Assembly: GCA_007133495.1 (NCBI GenBank)
Contig: SLMS01000012.1
Span: 1 to 36,296, forward strand
Length of the DNA: 36,296 nucleotides
Direction: 5' to 3'
Origin: Candidatus Sumerlaeota bacterium
GTDB taxonomy: Bacteria; Sumerlaeota; Sumerlaeia; SLMS01
Of the stretch, positions 26,679-32,406 are shown piece by piece. Position numbers and translations under genes: made by a program. The first letter of the stretch is position 1; each line of letters starts with the position of its first letter. The notes under the pieces were generated by a model that saw only the letters and a list, made by a program, of their open reading frames with translations, searched no databases and had not been told where the DNA came from.

Positions 26679-29600
26679 ATGCCGATCCGCGCAAGCGACT
26701 TCGTTCACCTTCATGTTCACTCGGAGTTCTCGCTCCTGGACGGGGCGAACCGTATCGGGCCGCTGGTCGATTACGTGAAGCAACTCGGCATGCCCGCGGT
26801 GGCGCTGACCGACCACGGCGTCATGTTCGGAGTGCACGAGTTCCAGAAAGCGTGCGCCAAGGCGGAGATCAAGCCAATCGCCGGCTGCGAGGTGTACATC
26901 ACCGCGGGGGACCGCCGGGCGCGCAGCCCAAGCCAGAACGGCCGGAATTACAACCACCTGCTGCTGCTGGCGGAGAATTATCAGGGGTACAAGAACCTGA
27001 TGAAGCTCTCCACGCTGGGGCACACCGAGGGTTACTACTACAAGCCGCGGGTGGACTTCGAACTGCTCGAGCAGTACAGTGAGGGCGTGGTCGCCACGAC
27101 GTCGTGCCTTGCGGGGTTGATTCCCCAGGCACTGCTGAATGGACGCGAGAAGCAGGCGGCGGAGATGACCGGCCGCTTTGTGGAACTCTTCGGCCGCGAG
27201 CGCTTCTTCGTCGAAATCCAGGACCACGGGCTCACCGAGCAGCACACCGTGAACGCCGGGCTCCTGCGCATCGCCGAACAGCAGAACCTCAAGCTCATTG
27301 CCACCAACGACTGCCACTACATGCGGCCTGAGGACGCCACGATGCACGACATCCTGCTCTGCGTGCAGACGGGGTGTTGCGTCAACGATGCGAACCGGCC
27401 TCTCAAATTCGATACGAATGAGTTCTACGTAAAATCCACCGAGGAAATGGCCCACCTTTTCCGCCATATTCCCGAGGCGGTGACGAACACGCGGTTGGTG
27501 GCGGAAATCTGCAACCTGGAGATGCCTCCCAAGGAGTACCACCTGCCGAAGTTCCCCTGCCCGGACGGCATGACGGAAAAGGAGTACCTGCCGGTGCGGG
27601 TGCGGGAGGGCGCTCGGGAACGTTACGGCGCCCGGGCGGACGAGGACGAGGACCTGCGCAAGCGGATCGAGTTCGAACTCGGCGTTATCGAAAACATGGG
27701 CTTTTCCGCCTACTTTCTGATCGTGGCGGATTTTATCGACTACGCACGGCAGACGGGGATTCCTGTCGGCCCGGGGCGCGGGTCGGCGGCGGGGTCCGTG
27801 GTGGCCTATTGCCTCGGGATCACGCAGCTCTGTCCGCTTCGGCACGGACTGCTTTTCGAGAGGTTCCTGAATCCCGACCGCGCCACGATGCCGGATATAG
27901 ACATCGATTTCTGCTTCGAGCGGCGGGGCGAGGTGATTGAGTACGTCCGGCGCAAGTACGGCGCGGAATGCGTGGCGCAGATCGTGACGTTCGGGACGAT
28001 GAAGGCCAAGGCGGCGGTGCGGGACGTCGGGCGCGCGCTCGGGGTGGAGCTGCCACGCGTGGACCGGGTGGCGAAGATGATCCCGGACGGGCCGAAGGTG
28101 ACGCTGGAGACGGCCGTGCAGGAAAACGAGGAGCTGGCGCGGCTTGTGGACTCGGACAGGGAGCTGGGACGTCTATACGGTACGGCCCGCAAAATCGAGG
28201 GCATGGTGCGCCACGCCAGCACGCACGCCGCCGGGGTCGTGATCGCGGACAGGGACCTGACCGAGTACATCCCCCTCTACCGATCGCCGAAGGAAGACGT
28301 CGTCGCCACGCAGTTCAACATGACCGAGGTGGAGGAACTCGGCCTGCTCAAGATGGATTTCCTCGGGATCAAGAACCTGACGATCATCCATCGGGTGGAG
28401 AAGTGGCTGCGCGAGCGCGATGGTATCGAAATTGACTGGGCGGCGCTGGACTACAAGGACAAGAAGACTTACGAGAACCTGCATCGCGGGCAGACGGCGG
28501 GGGTGTTCCAGCTCGAATCGGGTGGCATGACGGCGCTGGTGAAAGCGCTCAAGCCGACGGAGTTCGCCGACCTGACAGCGCTGCTGGCGCTATACAGGCC
28601 GGGGCCGCTCAAGGCCGACATGCACATGATGTATGTCAAGCGCAAGCACGCCCAGGAAAAGGTCGTTTACGACCATCCGAAACTGGAGCCGATCCTGAAG
28701 GAAAGCTACGGCATTTTCCTCTATCAGGAGCAGGTGATGCGCGTGGCGATGGAGCTTTGCGGTTTCACCCGCGGCGAAGCGGACGTGCTGCGCAAGGCGA
28801 TGGGGAAAAAGCAGGAAGACGTGATGGCGCGGATGGAGGAGAAGTTCATCCGCGGCGCGGCGGAACATAGCGGGGTGGAGGAGGGCCTGGCGCGGCATAT
28901 CTGGGACCAGATCGTGACGTTCGCAGGCTACGGGTTTAACAAATCGCACTCGGCCGCATACGCCGTCATCACTTTCGAGACGGCCTACCTGCGGGCGAAT
29001 TATCCGGCCTATTTTCAGGCAGCCCTTCTGACCAACGAAATTGGCGGCTCGACGGACAATATAGCCAAGTACGTGACAAACGCCCGCGAGATCGGTATAG
29101 ACGTATTGCCGGCGGACGTGAACCGGTCGCTCTCCTATTTCAATCCGGACGGCAACCGCATCTGGTACGCGATGGGCGCGGTGAAGACGGTCGGCGAGAA
29201 GCTGGTGGAAACGATCATCGCCGAGCGCGAAAAAAACGGCCCGTTCCGCAGCTTCCAGGATTTCATTTTCCGCATCCCGCACAACGCCATCAATTCGCGC
29301 ATGGTGGAGGCGCTGATCAAGGTCGGTGCGTTCGATTCGCTGCACACGAACCGGCACGCGCTGCTGGTGGCGCTGCCGGAATTGCTGGAAATGGCGCGCC
29401 AGCGGGAGCAGTCGCAATCCGAGGCGGATTTTTTTGCGGTGGGCGGCGAGGAGGAGAGCTTCTTCGAGGAGCAACCGCTCCCGGACGTGCCGGACTGGGA
29501 GGACAAAACGCGCGCCAATTACGAGAAGGAGTTCCTCGGCTTTTTCCTCACCGAGCACCCGCTCAACAAGTACCGGGTCGAGATGGCGAGTTTCCGCCAC

Positions 29601-30149
29601 GTGGGGAGCAGCCAGCTTTCCGAAATGGCGGAAAAGCTGGTGGGCGAGGACACCGTGGACGTGATGGTGCTCGGCTGTATTACAAACGTGATGATCCGGC
29701 ACAGCCGCAACGGCCGGCCGTTCGCCATCGTGGCGATGGAAGACCTGGAGGGGAGTTTCGAGGTAAAGCTCTTCGGCAAGAATTTCGAGAAATTCCGCGG
29801 CGAACTGGAGCAGGACCGCGTGGTGCAGGTGCGCGCGCGTCTTGGAGTGTGGCAGAACCGGCCGAGCCTGGACGTTTTCGATATGCGGCCGGCGGAGGAA
29901 TTACGCGACCAGGCAAGCGGTGTGGAACTGGAGTTCTCTCCCGCGGAGCTGACCGAGGACACGTTCCGCGAGCTGCGGGAGGTCTGCCGGCGGTTCGGCG
30001 GCAACCGGCAGCTCCGCGTGCGCCTGCGCCATCCGCAGTGCGGCGAGGTGGAGCTGCGCCTGAACGGGGACCTGCGGGTGAAGCTGACGGAGCCGGTGCT
30101 GAATGACCTTGAGAGAATTCCCGGCCGGCCTGTCATCAGGTTCTATTAA
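26679..30149 (+). CDS. dnaE: DNA polymerase III alpha subunit
   Basis: This is the replicative polymerase (1156 residues, DnaE1 length). The N-terminal PHP domain keeps all nine metal ligands: His12, His14, Asp21, His46, Glu71, His93, Cys143, Asp211 and His213, so it may have its own proofreading exonuclease. The catalytic block GRGSAAGSVVAYCLGI leads to MPDIDIDF with Asp406, Asp408 and Asp410. GIFLYQEQVMRVAMELCGF, VLRKAMGKK and FNKSHSAAYAVITFETAYL follow. A QSEADFF sequence near residue 914 fits the beta-clamp binding motif, and an OB-fold (IVAMEDLEGSFEVKLFG) lies near residue 1020. No Shine-Dalgarno sequence is evident before the ATG at 26679, but the FVHLHVHSEFSLLDG start matches family expectations. 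A repeat region follows. Confidence 0.97.
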   Translation: MPIRASDFVHLHVHSEFSLLDGANRIGPLVDYVKQLGMPAVALTDHGVMFGVHEFQKACAKAEIKPIAGCEVYITAGDRRARSPSQNGRNYNHLLLLAENYQGYKNLMKLSTLGHTEGYYYKPRVDFELLEQYSEGVVATTSCLAGLIPQALLNGREKQAAEMTGRFVELFGRERFFVEIQDHGLTEQHTVNAGLLRIAEQQNLKLIATNDCHYMRPEDATMHDILLCVQTGCCVNDANRPLKFDTNEFYVKSTEEMAHLFRHIPEAVTNTRLVAEICNLEMPPKEYHLPKFPCPDGMTEKEYLPVRVREGARERYGARADEDEDLRKRIEFELGVIENMGFSAYFLIVADFIDYARQTGIPVGPGRGSAAGSVVAYCLGITQLCPLRHGLLFERFLNPDRATMPDIDIDFCFERRGEVIEYVRRKYGAECVAQIVTFGTMKAKAAVRDVGRALGVELPRVDRVAKMIPDGPKVTLETAVQENEELARLVDSDRELGRLYGTARKIEGMVRHASTHAAGVVIADRDLTEYIPLYRSPKEDVVATQFNMTEVEELGLLKMDFLGIKNLTIIHRVEKWLRERDGIEIDWAALDYKDKKTYENLHRGQTAGVFQLESGGMTALVKALKPTEFADLTALLALYRPGPLKADMHMMYVKRKHAQEKVVYDHPKLEPILKESYGIFLYQEQVMRVAMELCGFTRGEADVLRKAMGKKQEDVMARMEEKFIRGAAEHSGVEEGLARHIWDQIVTFAGYGFNKSHSAAYAVITFETAYLRANYPAYFQAALLTNEIGGSTDNIAKYVTNAREIGIDVLPADVNRSLSYFNPDGNRIWYAMGAVKTVGEKLVETIIAEREKNGPFRSFQDFIFRIPHNAINSRMVEALIKVGAFDSLHTNRHALLVALPELLEMARQREQSQSEADFFAVGGEEESFFEEQPLPDVPDWEDKTRANYEKEFLGFFLTEHPLNKYRVEMASFRHVGSSQLSEMAEKLVGEDTVDVMVLGCITNVMIRHSRNGRPFAIVAMEDLEGSFEVKLFGKNFEKFRGELEQDRVVQVRARLGVWQNRPSLDVFDMRPAEELRDQASGVELEFSPAELTEDTFRELREVCRRFGGNRQLRVRLRHPQCGEVELRLNGDLRVKLTEPVLNDLERIPGRPVIRFY

Positions 30150-30235
30150 TTACAGACCGCGAGAGCCACGGGGAAGATGCTTCAGGAATAGCGAACTCGG
30201 GACGAAAAACAAAATGAGCCACTCAATCGCGAAGG

Positions 30236-30929
30236 GCATGGAAGCAGCCTCCCGCGGTGTATGACCGCCGGGGAGGTATTCCATCGGTGTTCATTCCCTT
30301 TGTCCGTGGTTTCTTTCACGCCACTGATGGAGAGGATAAACACAGATTCAGGGGTACGGACCCAAAAGCGGCCCGAAGGGACGTAGAAGGTCCTATTGAT
30401 GGGACGGCATGGAGACACTCCTTCGCGGCGTATGAGCGCCGGGCAGGTGCTCCATCGGTGTTCATTTCCATTATCCGTGGTTCTTTTCACGCCACTGATG
30501 GAGAGGATAAACACAGAATCAGGGGTACGGACCCAAGAGCGGGCCCGATGAGATATACAAGGCTCTATGTGATGGGATGGCGTGAAGGCAGCTTTCCGCG
30601 GTGTATGAGCGCCGGGGAGGTATCCCATCGGTGTTCATCCCCTTTATCCGTGGCTCTTTTCACGCCACTGATGGAGAGGATAAACACAGATTCAGGGAGA
30701 CGAACCCAAAAGCGGGCCCGATGGGACATACAAGGCTCTATGTGATGGGATGGCATGGAAACATTCCTTCGCGGCGTATGAGCGCCGGGCCGGTGCTCCA
30801 TCGGTGTTCATTTCCATTATCCGTGGCTCTTTTCACGCCACTGATGGAGAGGATAAACACAGATTCAGGGAGACGGTCCGTAAAGCGGGCCCGATGGGAC
30901 GTAGAAGGTCCCATTGATGGGATGGCGTG
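30236..30929. repeat. tandem array of about 172-bp intergenic repeats
   Basis: Four partial or full units begin with CCACTGATGGAGAGGATAAA at 30321, 30492, 30665 and 30838 (steps of 171, 173 and 173 bases), preceded by a partial unit. Each unit contains the element in both orientations: CCACTGATGGAG...AACACAGATTC forward, and CCATCGGTGTTCAT...TATCCGTGG, its inverted relative. Units differ by scattered substitutions. The period is not a multiple of three and open frames run on both strands, so I do not regard it as coding. There are no spacers as in CRISPR. The flanks 30150-30235 and 30930-30992 show nothing recognisable. Confidence 0.9.
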
Positions 30930-30992
30930 CTGCTCGTAGAAGGGTCTGAAGGCTTCTGTTGCGGATGCTTCTTCGCGGCTGGGTAAGACATT

Positions 30993-31122
30993 CTCCGTGC
31001 CTCTGTGTCTCCGTGGTGTGGGCCCTTTTTATAGATGTCGTGCGACACGGAGCCACGGAGCAGGAACGTTTTACTGGTCGTTGTGATATATTGACCACGA
31101 AGGGCACGAAAAGCCACGAAAG
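30993..31122. repeat. CACGGAG / CACGAAG short-repeat cluster
   Basis: CTCCGTGCCTCTGTGTCTCCGTGG (two related halves) faces its inverted counterpart ACACGGAGCCACGGAG across about 30 bases. CCACGAAGGGCACGAA and GCCACGAAAGG follow. I recognise CACGGAG and CACGAAG runs as intergenic elements in many genomes of Planctomycetes-like and other environmental bacteria. No coding function is apparent. Confidence 0.8.
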
Positions 31123-31152
31123 GTGCTCTGCCGGTGGGCGGTGCGGCTTTGC

Positions 31153-31983
31153 TCAGCGGGAGGGGTCATCGGCCGGCGGGTTTTCTTTTTTCCCGTTCTG
31201 CTTTTCGCCGGTGCCGAGTTCCTGCCGTTCCCAGACATGTGCGTATTTCAGGAATACCGAATGCGCGGCCATCCAGCAGATGATGAAACCCATGATGCCG
31301 TCGCGCCAGCCCCCGTACAGCACGAACTGACGGAAAAAACGCCAGACGGGGCGCAGCATGATGTGGCGGTAGCCCACCTTTGGCGTACGCTTTTCGCGGT
31401 CATGGGAGGCCCACTCGGCGTAGCGTCCGTGCTTGTATAGATACTGGGAGAAGGAGTCGAACGTATAGTGCAGCAGGCGGCCCTTGAGGTGGGCGGTGCG
31501 GTAGGGCTTTTCGTCGGCGGGAATCACGTCCGGGTGGACGCGGCGCTTGATGTAGCGTGACCGGTCGCGGCGGAAAAGGCGCAGCACGTCGTCGCGCTGC
31601 CAGCCGCAGCCGCGCACCAGCCGGCCGGCGAAGTAGTTCTGGCGATAGACCCGGTAGCCGTCGTGCGGCCCGTCGCGGCGGAGCACTTCCTGGACCTCGC
31701 GGGCCAGTTCGGGGGTGACGCGCTCGTCCGAATCGACGACGAGCACCCAGGGGTGACTGGCCTTCGGGATGCCGAAGTTCTTCTGCGCGGCGGCGCCCTT
31801 GTACTCGTTGAGGTAAACGGTGGCGCCCATCTCCCGGGCGATCTGCTCCGTGCGCCCGCCGGCGGAGGCGTCCACGATGACCACCACCTCGTCGGCGAAG
31901 CGCACGCTCTCGATGCACGGGCCGATGTGCTCTTCCTCGTCTCCGACGGTGATCAGGGCGGTAAGTTTCTGGCGTTCTGTCAT
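31153..31983 (-). CDS. glycosyltransferase family 2, LPS core glucosyltransferase-like
   Basis: The 276-residue protein starts KLTALITVGDEEEHIGPCIE and has the nucleotide-sugar and metal motifs ADEVVVIVDASAGGRTEQIA and VLVVDSDERVTPEL, then GYRVYRQNYFAGRLVRGCGW. This fits the WaaE/KdtX-like group that adds a sugar to the inner core of lipopolysaccharide. A family-typical ICWMAAHSVFLKYAHVWE lies near the end, and the last 25 residues are polar and charged. One departure is VDASAGGRT where relatives usually have VDSxSTDxT. The start at 31983 is chosen because homology begins there; the open frame extends to 32319 without support. The gene is isolated: repeats lie downstream and a divergent small gene upstream. 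Confidence 0.88.
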   Translation of the reverse strand: MTERQKLTALITVGDEEEHIGPCIESVRFADEVVVIVDASAGGRTEQIAREMGATVYLNEYKGAAAQKNFGIPKASHPWVLVVDSDERVTPELAREVQEVLRRDGPHDGYRVYRQNYFAGRLVRGCGWQRDDVLRLFRRDRSRYIKRRVHPDVIPADEKPYRTAHLKGRLLHYTFDSFSQYLYKHGRYAEWASHDREKRTPKVGYRHIMLRPVWRFFRQFVLYGGWRDGIMGFIICWMAAHSVFLKYAHVWERQELGTGEKQNGKKENPPADDPSR

Positions 31984-32160
31984 GCGGACTCCCCGGGTGC
32001 GCGGTGAATGGGAGCTTTGGCAGGCCCGCCGGACGGGGTCACGCCCTATTTGGTGGTGCGCTTTCGCGTTGCGGCAGGGTGGTCCTGTGGGCAGCTTCCC
32101 TCCTCCCGCGTGCCTGTCCGGGCGCGGCCCCAGATTACGCCGGAGGAACGAAAACCCGTC

Positions 32161-32310
32161 ATGGAACCACGCGATTACATCATGCTGGGACTGCTGGTGG
32201 GTATCGCCGTGGTGGGCTCGGCGATCCTGGTTTACGTGCTGCGGAACCTGGACAAGGAGAACGGCAACGGTTCTTCTTCGGAGCAGGGTGGCGGGCACGG
32301 GCACGAGTAG
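32161..32310 (+). CDS. small single-helix membrane protein, histidine-containing tail
   Basis: This predicted 49-residue protein (MEPRDYIMLGLLVGIAVVGS at the start) has one hydrophobic helix of about 20 residues, then LRNLDKENGNG and a Ser/Gly/His tail (GGGHGHE). GGAGGAA lies about 14 bases upstream of the ATG, a little far. I do not recognise a family. It ends 96 bases before the HtrA-type gene in the same direction, so it may share its transcript. A longer frame starting at 32008 is unlikely because the added part looks random. Confidence 0.55.
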   Translation: MEPRDYIMLGLLVGIAVVGSAILVYVLRNLDKENGNGSSSEQGGGHGHE

Positions 32311-32406
32311 CCGCTCCACTCCCTTTCCTCACCCCTCTAAACGGGCAAAGCTTTTGCAAACACCCCATCGCGGAGAAAACCATCCCCACGGGAGGAACGC
32401 TTGGTC

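Follow-up and report, generated by a model that had tools for sequence, protein, structure and literature searches.

PMC3733652 describes, as REP/REPtron and TIRtron systems, small nuclease genes that have short palindromic or inverted repeats at their flanks, further copies of these repeats lying between other genes without the nuclease gene; according to the same paper, a REP carries the tetranucleotide GTAG (or CGTC) at one end. MITEs are characterised in PMC10969869 as short, non-coding and dispersed, with inverted arms, and Rpn/YhgA-like proteins (Transposase_31) are linked to DNA mobility in PMC5350276. The tandem array reported here is located in a stretch of 36,296 nucleotides from Candidatus Sumerlaeota bacterium (contig SLMS01000012.1 of GCA_007133495.1; this whole stretch is the window), the genome assembly of which (3.73 Mb, 344 contigs) is 89% complete. 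Its element resembles a MITE in being short, non-coding and dispersed; putative outer inverted arms pair significantly in one copy (C285) of the three compared; unlike a MITE, it has a presumed partner that is not a known transposase, and the arms of its hairpins point inward (R arm, loop, L arm). This partner, GxxExxY (PF13366/TIGR04256, about 125 aa), is a predicted Cas4-like nuclease of the PD-(D/E)XK type. As a small nuclease gene with inverted repeats and scattered gene-less copies it resembles a REPtron or a TIRtron; it differs from the REPtron gene (RAYT, an HUH nuclease) and the TIRtron in the predicted nuclease type, which is not HUH, and in the arms, which are built of 8–10 bp modules without a GTAG or CGTC tag. 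The bracketing of this gene by such arms in several bacterial phyla suggests an undescribed kind of mobile DNA, with the array as its gene-less, tandemly expanded relic; the reading towards which we lean is that of a tandemly expanded interior of a non-autonomous element with arms from the GxxExxY-cassette family.

The array (30226–30908; Table 1) was obtained in a repeat search as copies of 166 nt. Repeat searches confirmed the original prediction of a tandem array of units of about 172 bp, each with an inverted pair; of the "four to five units" given there, four were found and a fifth was not. The steps, put at 171–173 bases, were measured as 171, 173 and 173, and the units are indeed imperfect, being 86–90% alike (pairwise identity 0.856–0.904, highest between units 2 and 4). 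Tandem Repeats Finder gave a period of 173 (3.9 copies, 85% matches, score 954) and, with the higher score, a period of 346 (2.0 copies, 88%, score 1093); because the 346-bp period scores higher and units 2 and 4 are closest, the four-unit array probably originated by the doubling of a dimer. The array starts 77 bases past the last base of dnaE (30149), in agreement with the position directly after this gene that had been noted. Three open frames across the array were scanned and no Pfam match was obtained; the array is without a recognised protein in these frames. Each hairpin consists of an R arm (ATC...GTGG), an 11-base loop and an L arm (CCAC...GAT), and the pairing of the arms is imperfect.

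Table 1. Features of the array and its surroundings (positions in the window)
Feature	Position	Strand	Basis or remark
Tandem array, units 1–4	30226–30396, 30397–30569, 30570–30742, 30743–30908	+	repeat searches
Hairpin 1	30281–30349; R arm 30281–30309, 11-base loop, L arm 30321–30349	.	arm sequences, folding
Hairpin 2	30452–30520; R arm 30452–30480, L arm 30492–30520	.	best RNA fold is a different one
Hairpin 3	30625–30693; R arm 30625–30653, L arm 30665–30693	.	strongest fold
Hairpin 4	30798–30866; R arm 30798–30826, L arm 30838–30866	.	arm sequences, folding
Left outer arm, degenerate, GAG type, AAAATGAGCCACTCAATCGCGAAGGGCATGG	30211–30241	+	likeness to C285, C200 and C172 copies, not pairing
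Right outer arm, GAG type, CTCCGTGCCTCTGTGTCTCCGTGG	30993–31016	+	further genomes of the class also show matches to ~30991–31018
Second GAG-type arm, L orientation, CACGGAGCCACGGAG	31046–31060	+	sequence
GAA-type arm, L orientation, CCACGAAGGGCACGAAAAGCCACGAAAGG	31095–31123	+	sequence
dnaE, DNA polymerase III alpha	26679–30149	+	context
Family 2 glycosyltransferase, convergent	31153–32319	-	context

Three arm module types are present within about 1 kb between dnaE and the next gene. Pairing of the outer arms around the window array was not significant (245 of 500 shuffles reached the score), and the outer GAG arms were dropped as a proven pair for this reason.

A hairpin model search of the window genome gave 11 intact hairpins and one half copy on six contigs: four in the window, three on C16 and single ones on C200, C285, C167 and C172; C167 carries an extra L arm besides its intact hairpin. 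The hairpin is therefore not a single occurrence in the genome; the sister species (G001) gave one by the same search. The C200 copy is a single hairpin with both inner flanks of the array, while C172 retains mainly the left inner flank and C285 mainly the right one. Since these three contigs carry one hairpin with array flanks, the single hairpin probably represents the earlier arrangement, from which the array arose by internal duplication. The single-hairpin relatives, C200 above all, point to internal tandem duplication, and so it is improbable that what moved was the 172-bp unit. Two other short arrays have other lengths (L arms of C167, 224 bp apart; hairpins of C16, 160 bp apart); because of this difference, internal duplication probably happened more than once. 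Read by eye, the duplication joint in the window and on C167 coincides with a GGCATGG-like match that the two inner flanks share. The outer inverted arms of C285 were significant (none of 500 shuffles reached the score); for those of C200 the pairing was not above shuffles (248 of 500). Phage and plasmid records searched with one array unit gave no DNA match at E ≤ 1e-3.

In the sister species the glycosyltransferase–HtrA–pfkB–hom block is inverted relative to dnaE (window 30149–31153 compared with G001:C291/L084 and G000:C236/L095), and the array is at one junction of the inverted block. At the other junction no array copy was found, and a 3.6-kb stretch of other genes is present there; inversion by recombination between two arrays was dropped, since the second junction is without an array copy. 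At the contig ends, 96 bases are identical between the sister assemblies (G000:C131:11017-11112 and G001:C291:1-96), the aligned genes being about 80% alike; this is either a shared repeat or cross-assembly.

Folding of the single array hairpins gave -20.1 to -29 kcal/mol (z -2.7 to -5.2), and the 717-nt array stretch gave z -5.7 vs 20 shuffles. Folding better than shuffles, together with the position between convergent genes, is what would be expected of a structural or RNA element used by the host and kept by selection (attenuator, terminator or protein-binding array). This explanation is nevertheless quite improbable: in 12 hairpin copies only 1 of 23 pairs was changed on both sides, the same as in shuffles; no Rfam match was obtained in the window at gathering scores; the copies sit at unrelated places; terminator-like sites numbered 2 vs 0.9 expected; and in the sister species the contig with both genes that adjoin the array contains nothing that matches it. 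The copies have the look of decaying duplicates. Of two ideas put forward in the original prediction, the structural site is unsupported, the hairpin pairs being without covariation, and the mobile non-autonomous element is supported as the better one: the element is dispersed and its arms are of a type that brackets GxxExxY genes, only the 172-bp unit itself being, as said, a poor candidate for what moved.

In the sister species, the matched region of a GxxExxY gene (TIGR04256, E 3.5e-36) is followed 20 bp later by the start of the hairpin; of the 12 closely alike hairpins that this genome and the window genome have together, no other lies beside such a gene. With a window-type R arm pattern of 21 fixed bases and one two-base choice, the arm was found in 44 public genome stretches from six phyla (seven with Geobacteraceae counted separately): Acidobacteria, Bacteroidetes (Pedobacter, Cecembia), Verrucomicrobia, FCPU426, Acetobacteraceae, Geobacteraceae, a proteobacterium and Chloroflexi. 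A GxxExxY gene is present in 5 of these 44 stretches, 47–139 bp from the nearest arm and (read by eye) on its inner side; it is absent from the other 39. In three FCPU426 species (L279; L293 = L196; L186) a GxxExxY gene has window-type arms on both sides, and these cases count as one event because they occupy one orthologous site. A similar arm pair brackets a GxxExxY gene in a genome of the same family as the window genome (L215). The window genome (89% complete) yielded two PF13366 genes, both without GAT-type arms; the GxxExxY gene on C247 (L201) has GAG-type arms. Gene-less L–R pairs with a short interior were read by eye in 6 of the 18 window-type-arm stretches shown, and neighbouring arms of the same direction lie within 250 bp in 7 of the 44 stretches, six of these being in one Bryobacterales genome. 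Single-arm tandem runs were seen in Bryobacterales MAG-245 (L159, L168, L175, L182, L189 and L198; periods 174, 76, 90, 94, 88/93 and 38 bp), which seems to have its own way of amplifying arms.

By genome, PF13366 was present in 18 of 18 genomes with window-type arms vs 3 of 14 control genomes (p 3e-6; an unmatched comparison, the 18 having been chosen for the arm); within the class, hairpin and gene presence showed no significant link (7/7 vs 24/32, p 0.31). Linkage of arms to individual genes was scored as the best inverted match between 200 bp upstream and 200 bp downstream of the gene; swapped flank pairs served as control. The home-class set consisted of 77 records from 70 stretches; 4 records with less than 100 bp on one side were excluded; two records each in L200, L205, L246, L260, L261, L267 and L268 (split or neighbouring genes) were kept, and one GxxExxY gene was counted in both L205 and L231. 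PF13366 coverage was 70 stretches of 91 places (home class) and 70 of 101 (18 genomes of other groups), the places left out being mostly lower-scoring. Score at least 16: home class, 34 of 73 records vs 0 of 300 swapped pairs; other groups, 30 of 70 vs 2 of 400; combined, 64 of 143 vs 2 of 700. Score at least 14: home class, 39 of 73 vs 2 of 300; other groups, 32 of 70 vs 7 of 400; combined, 71 of 143 vs 9 of 700 and vs 0 of 66 other open reading frames of the same stretches. Clear arms were absent from the remaining 72 of the 143 records (score below 14).

RAYT genes, taken as positive control, reached a score of at least 14 in 22 of 27 cases, with their own, different REPs (27 of 30 loci, strand-aware; three weak partial matches were left out). 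That the arms are REP-like palindromes of the RAYT system could be thought of, since they are palindromes scattered between genes and the Y1 transposase family (PF01797) was over cut-off in 26 of 39 genomes of the class; the flanks of the Y1 genes carry, however, the other palindromes just mentioned, and modules were found at only 1 of 30 (strict motif) or 2 of 30 (three modules) RAYT loci vs 8 of 30 and 13 of 30 GxxExxY loci. The window arms have neither a GTAG or CGTC end tag nor an association with RAYT. A RAYT/REP identity is scarcely credible on these data and was rejected.

The layout of the cassettes is L arm, GxxExxY gene, R arm, the arms being inverted to each other; among the 71 records with score at least 14, CCRC was distal in the upstream arm in 32, GYGG in 2, and the polarity was unclear in 37. 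The arms consist of about three modules of 8–10 bp, of many types (CACGGAG, CACGAAG, CACAGAT, CGCCAAG, CGCTAAT, CACCAAA, CATATAAG). For the duplication and rhythm tests, 63 arms were taken (score at least 16 and no fewer than 150 bp on either side); for 59 of them the flanks served in the duplication test; the best lag was 8–10 bp in 58 of 62 cassette arms. The window arms have the CCRC/GYGG polarity, and the 8–10 bp rhythm was read there by eye only. Module palindromes of the same kind, several of them much more perfect, were found in five other genera of the class. Arm similarity follows protein similarity between genomes (r 0.377) and, likewise, when the home class is compared with other groups (r 0.338), neither value being reached in 999 permutations; this would fit either a protein that recognises its arms or cassettes that descend as wholes from common ancestors. 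A perfect inverted repeat of 106 bp, far longer than the others seen, surrounds the GxxExxY gene of L294 (G078:C15) and may be a misassembly or a different structure. In Sphingomonas parapaucimobilis (L345, 1483–1911) a GxxExxY gene is placed between fabD and fabG of the fatty acid operon; a clear inverted pair is absent, and a run of arm-like modules lies upstream.

A cassette of 468 bp, 95.7% alike, is present at two places of genome G014 with unrelated flanks. Another cassette splits the ATP synthase genes PF00231 and PF00006, which we take to be those of the gamma and beta subunits and normally neighbours. At one locus of two Verrucomicrobia (L284 and L285; flanks about 87% alike) the cassettes differ in arms and gene, pointing to either a natural exchange or an insertion hot spot. 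A Bacteroides finegoldii record contains a cassette with clean arms following radA. GxxExxY protein was found in seven plasmid records and in no phage record; arms on five of the seven plasmid stretches and on one viral contig scored 21 (Bacteroides finegoldii) and 6–11 (the other five). Target-site duplications of at least 4 bp were seen in 5 of 59 GxxExxY cassettes vs 10.6% of swapped pairs, so that none was detected beyond the control; MITEs have such duplications in young copies, and old copies may have lost them. Comparison of the flanks of 151 gene records with the stretches examined gave no empty site: among the matches listed, every stretch matched by both flanks has a GxxExxY gene itself.

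These results bear on two further explanations. A MITE-like element, moved by an ordinary transposase (DDE/HUH) with GxxExxY as a frequent passenger inside, would account for a dispersed short element with inverted arms and for the gene-less L–R pairs of other phyla (6 of 18 stretches shown); it is made unlikely by the repeated bracketing of GxxExxY genes, by arms that follow the protein sequence, by the missing target duplications, and by the single Y1 transposase gene detected in the window genome, which has an internal stop and a different flanking hairpin. A variant of the preferred explanation is a homing-type selfish nuclease: the arm palindromes would be pre-existing cut sites, the gene would be copied in by repair, and the hairpins would be empty targets. 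Gene-less arms are commoner than gene-adjacent ones, both in the sister genomes and in the public stretches, target duplications were not found, and one locus of two species holds different cassettes, all of which suits this variant; we still regard it as rather doubtful, because the shared 468 bp of the G014 cassettes begins 14 bp beyond the left arm, so that the arms and some outer DNA moved together. The Y1 gene mentioned above occupies ~1380–2030 of L115 (G000:C330), and its own hairpin is GGTGGTCGAGCGGAGCGAAGACCACC.

For the favoured reading, a non-autonomous element with cassette-type arms, the following course is proposed. The GxxExxY nuclease would recognise its own arms and promote copying of the DNA bounded by them, gene-less derivatives like the array included; the order R–loop–L may represent the joined ends of one element (a circle or a tandem junction), because L and R are defined by the gene cassettes; and the four units would have arisen in the window through duplication between short GGCATGG-like matches. 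The linkage of genes to arms, the arm polarity, the joint change of arms and protein, the duplicated cassette, the cassette inside an operon and the dispersal of the hairpins are observations. That the GxxExxY nuclease moves the arms is our best guess, and it is called a guess and not a result because duplications and empty sites did not appear, about half of the records lack clear arms, most window-type arms have no gene nearby, the outer arms of the window are not a significant pair, and hairpin and gene are not significantly linked within the class. At somewhat less than an even chance, GxxExxY cassettes as a whole may be an undescribed cross-phylum mobile element: a selfish gene of about 450 bp whose product, a Cas4-like nuclease, recognises the modular arms around it, the arm type changing with the protein, and the source of the widespread unexplained CACAGAT-, CACGGAG- and CACGAAG-type intergenic repeats, the array among them.

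In the literature searched, which was largely open-access, no description of these arms or of their link to GxxExxY was found, nor a name or function for the modular repeats, which are intergenic in several phyla. The tie between arms and nuclease offers a candidate DNA substrate for the GxxExxY protein and a candidate maker for unexplained hairpins; each arm type, set beside the sequence of its protein, adds to a ready table for specificity testing.

The GxxExxY protein itself appears well conserved: at least 96% of 71 proteins retain D, E-x-K and Q-x3-Y; dN/dS was 0.045–0.354 in 7 of 9 pairs, the other 2 being saturated and hence undefined. Rpn/YhgA-like proteins, which are PD-(D/E)XK nucleases, would resemble it in a link to DNA mobility and differ in Pfam family. 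A PDB sequence search with one GxxExxY protein gave no match at E ≤ 1. The structure predicted from five sequences (pLDDT 91) had as the nearest solved fold SSO0001 (4ic1; Foldseek E 1.3e-3), which we take to be a Cas4; structural alignment: Z 10.4, 99 residues, rmsd 3.6, 16% identity. GxxExxY thus resembles SSO0001 in predicted fold and in the conserved D...ExK...QxxxY; it differs in sequence, as the low identity indicates, and in that its genes are bracketed by inverted modular arms.
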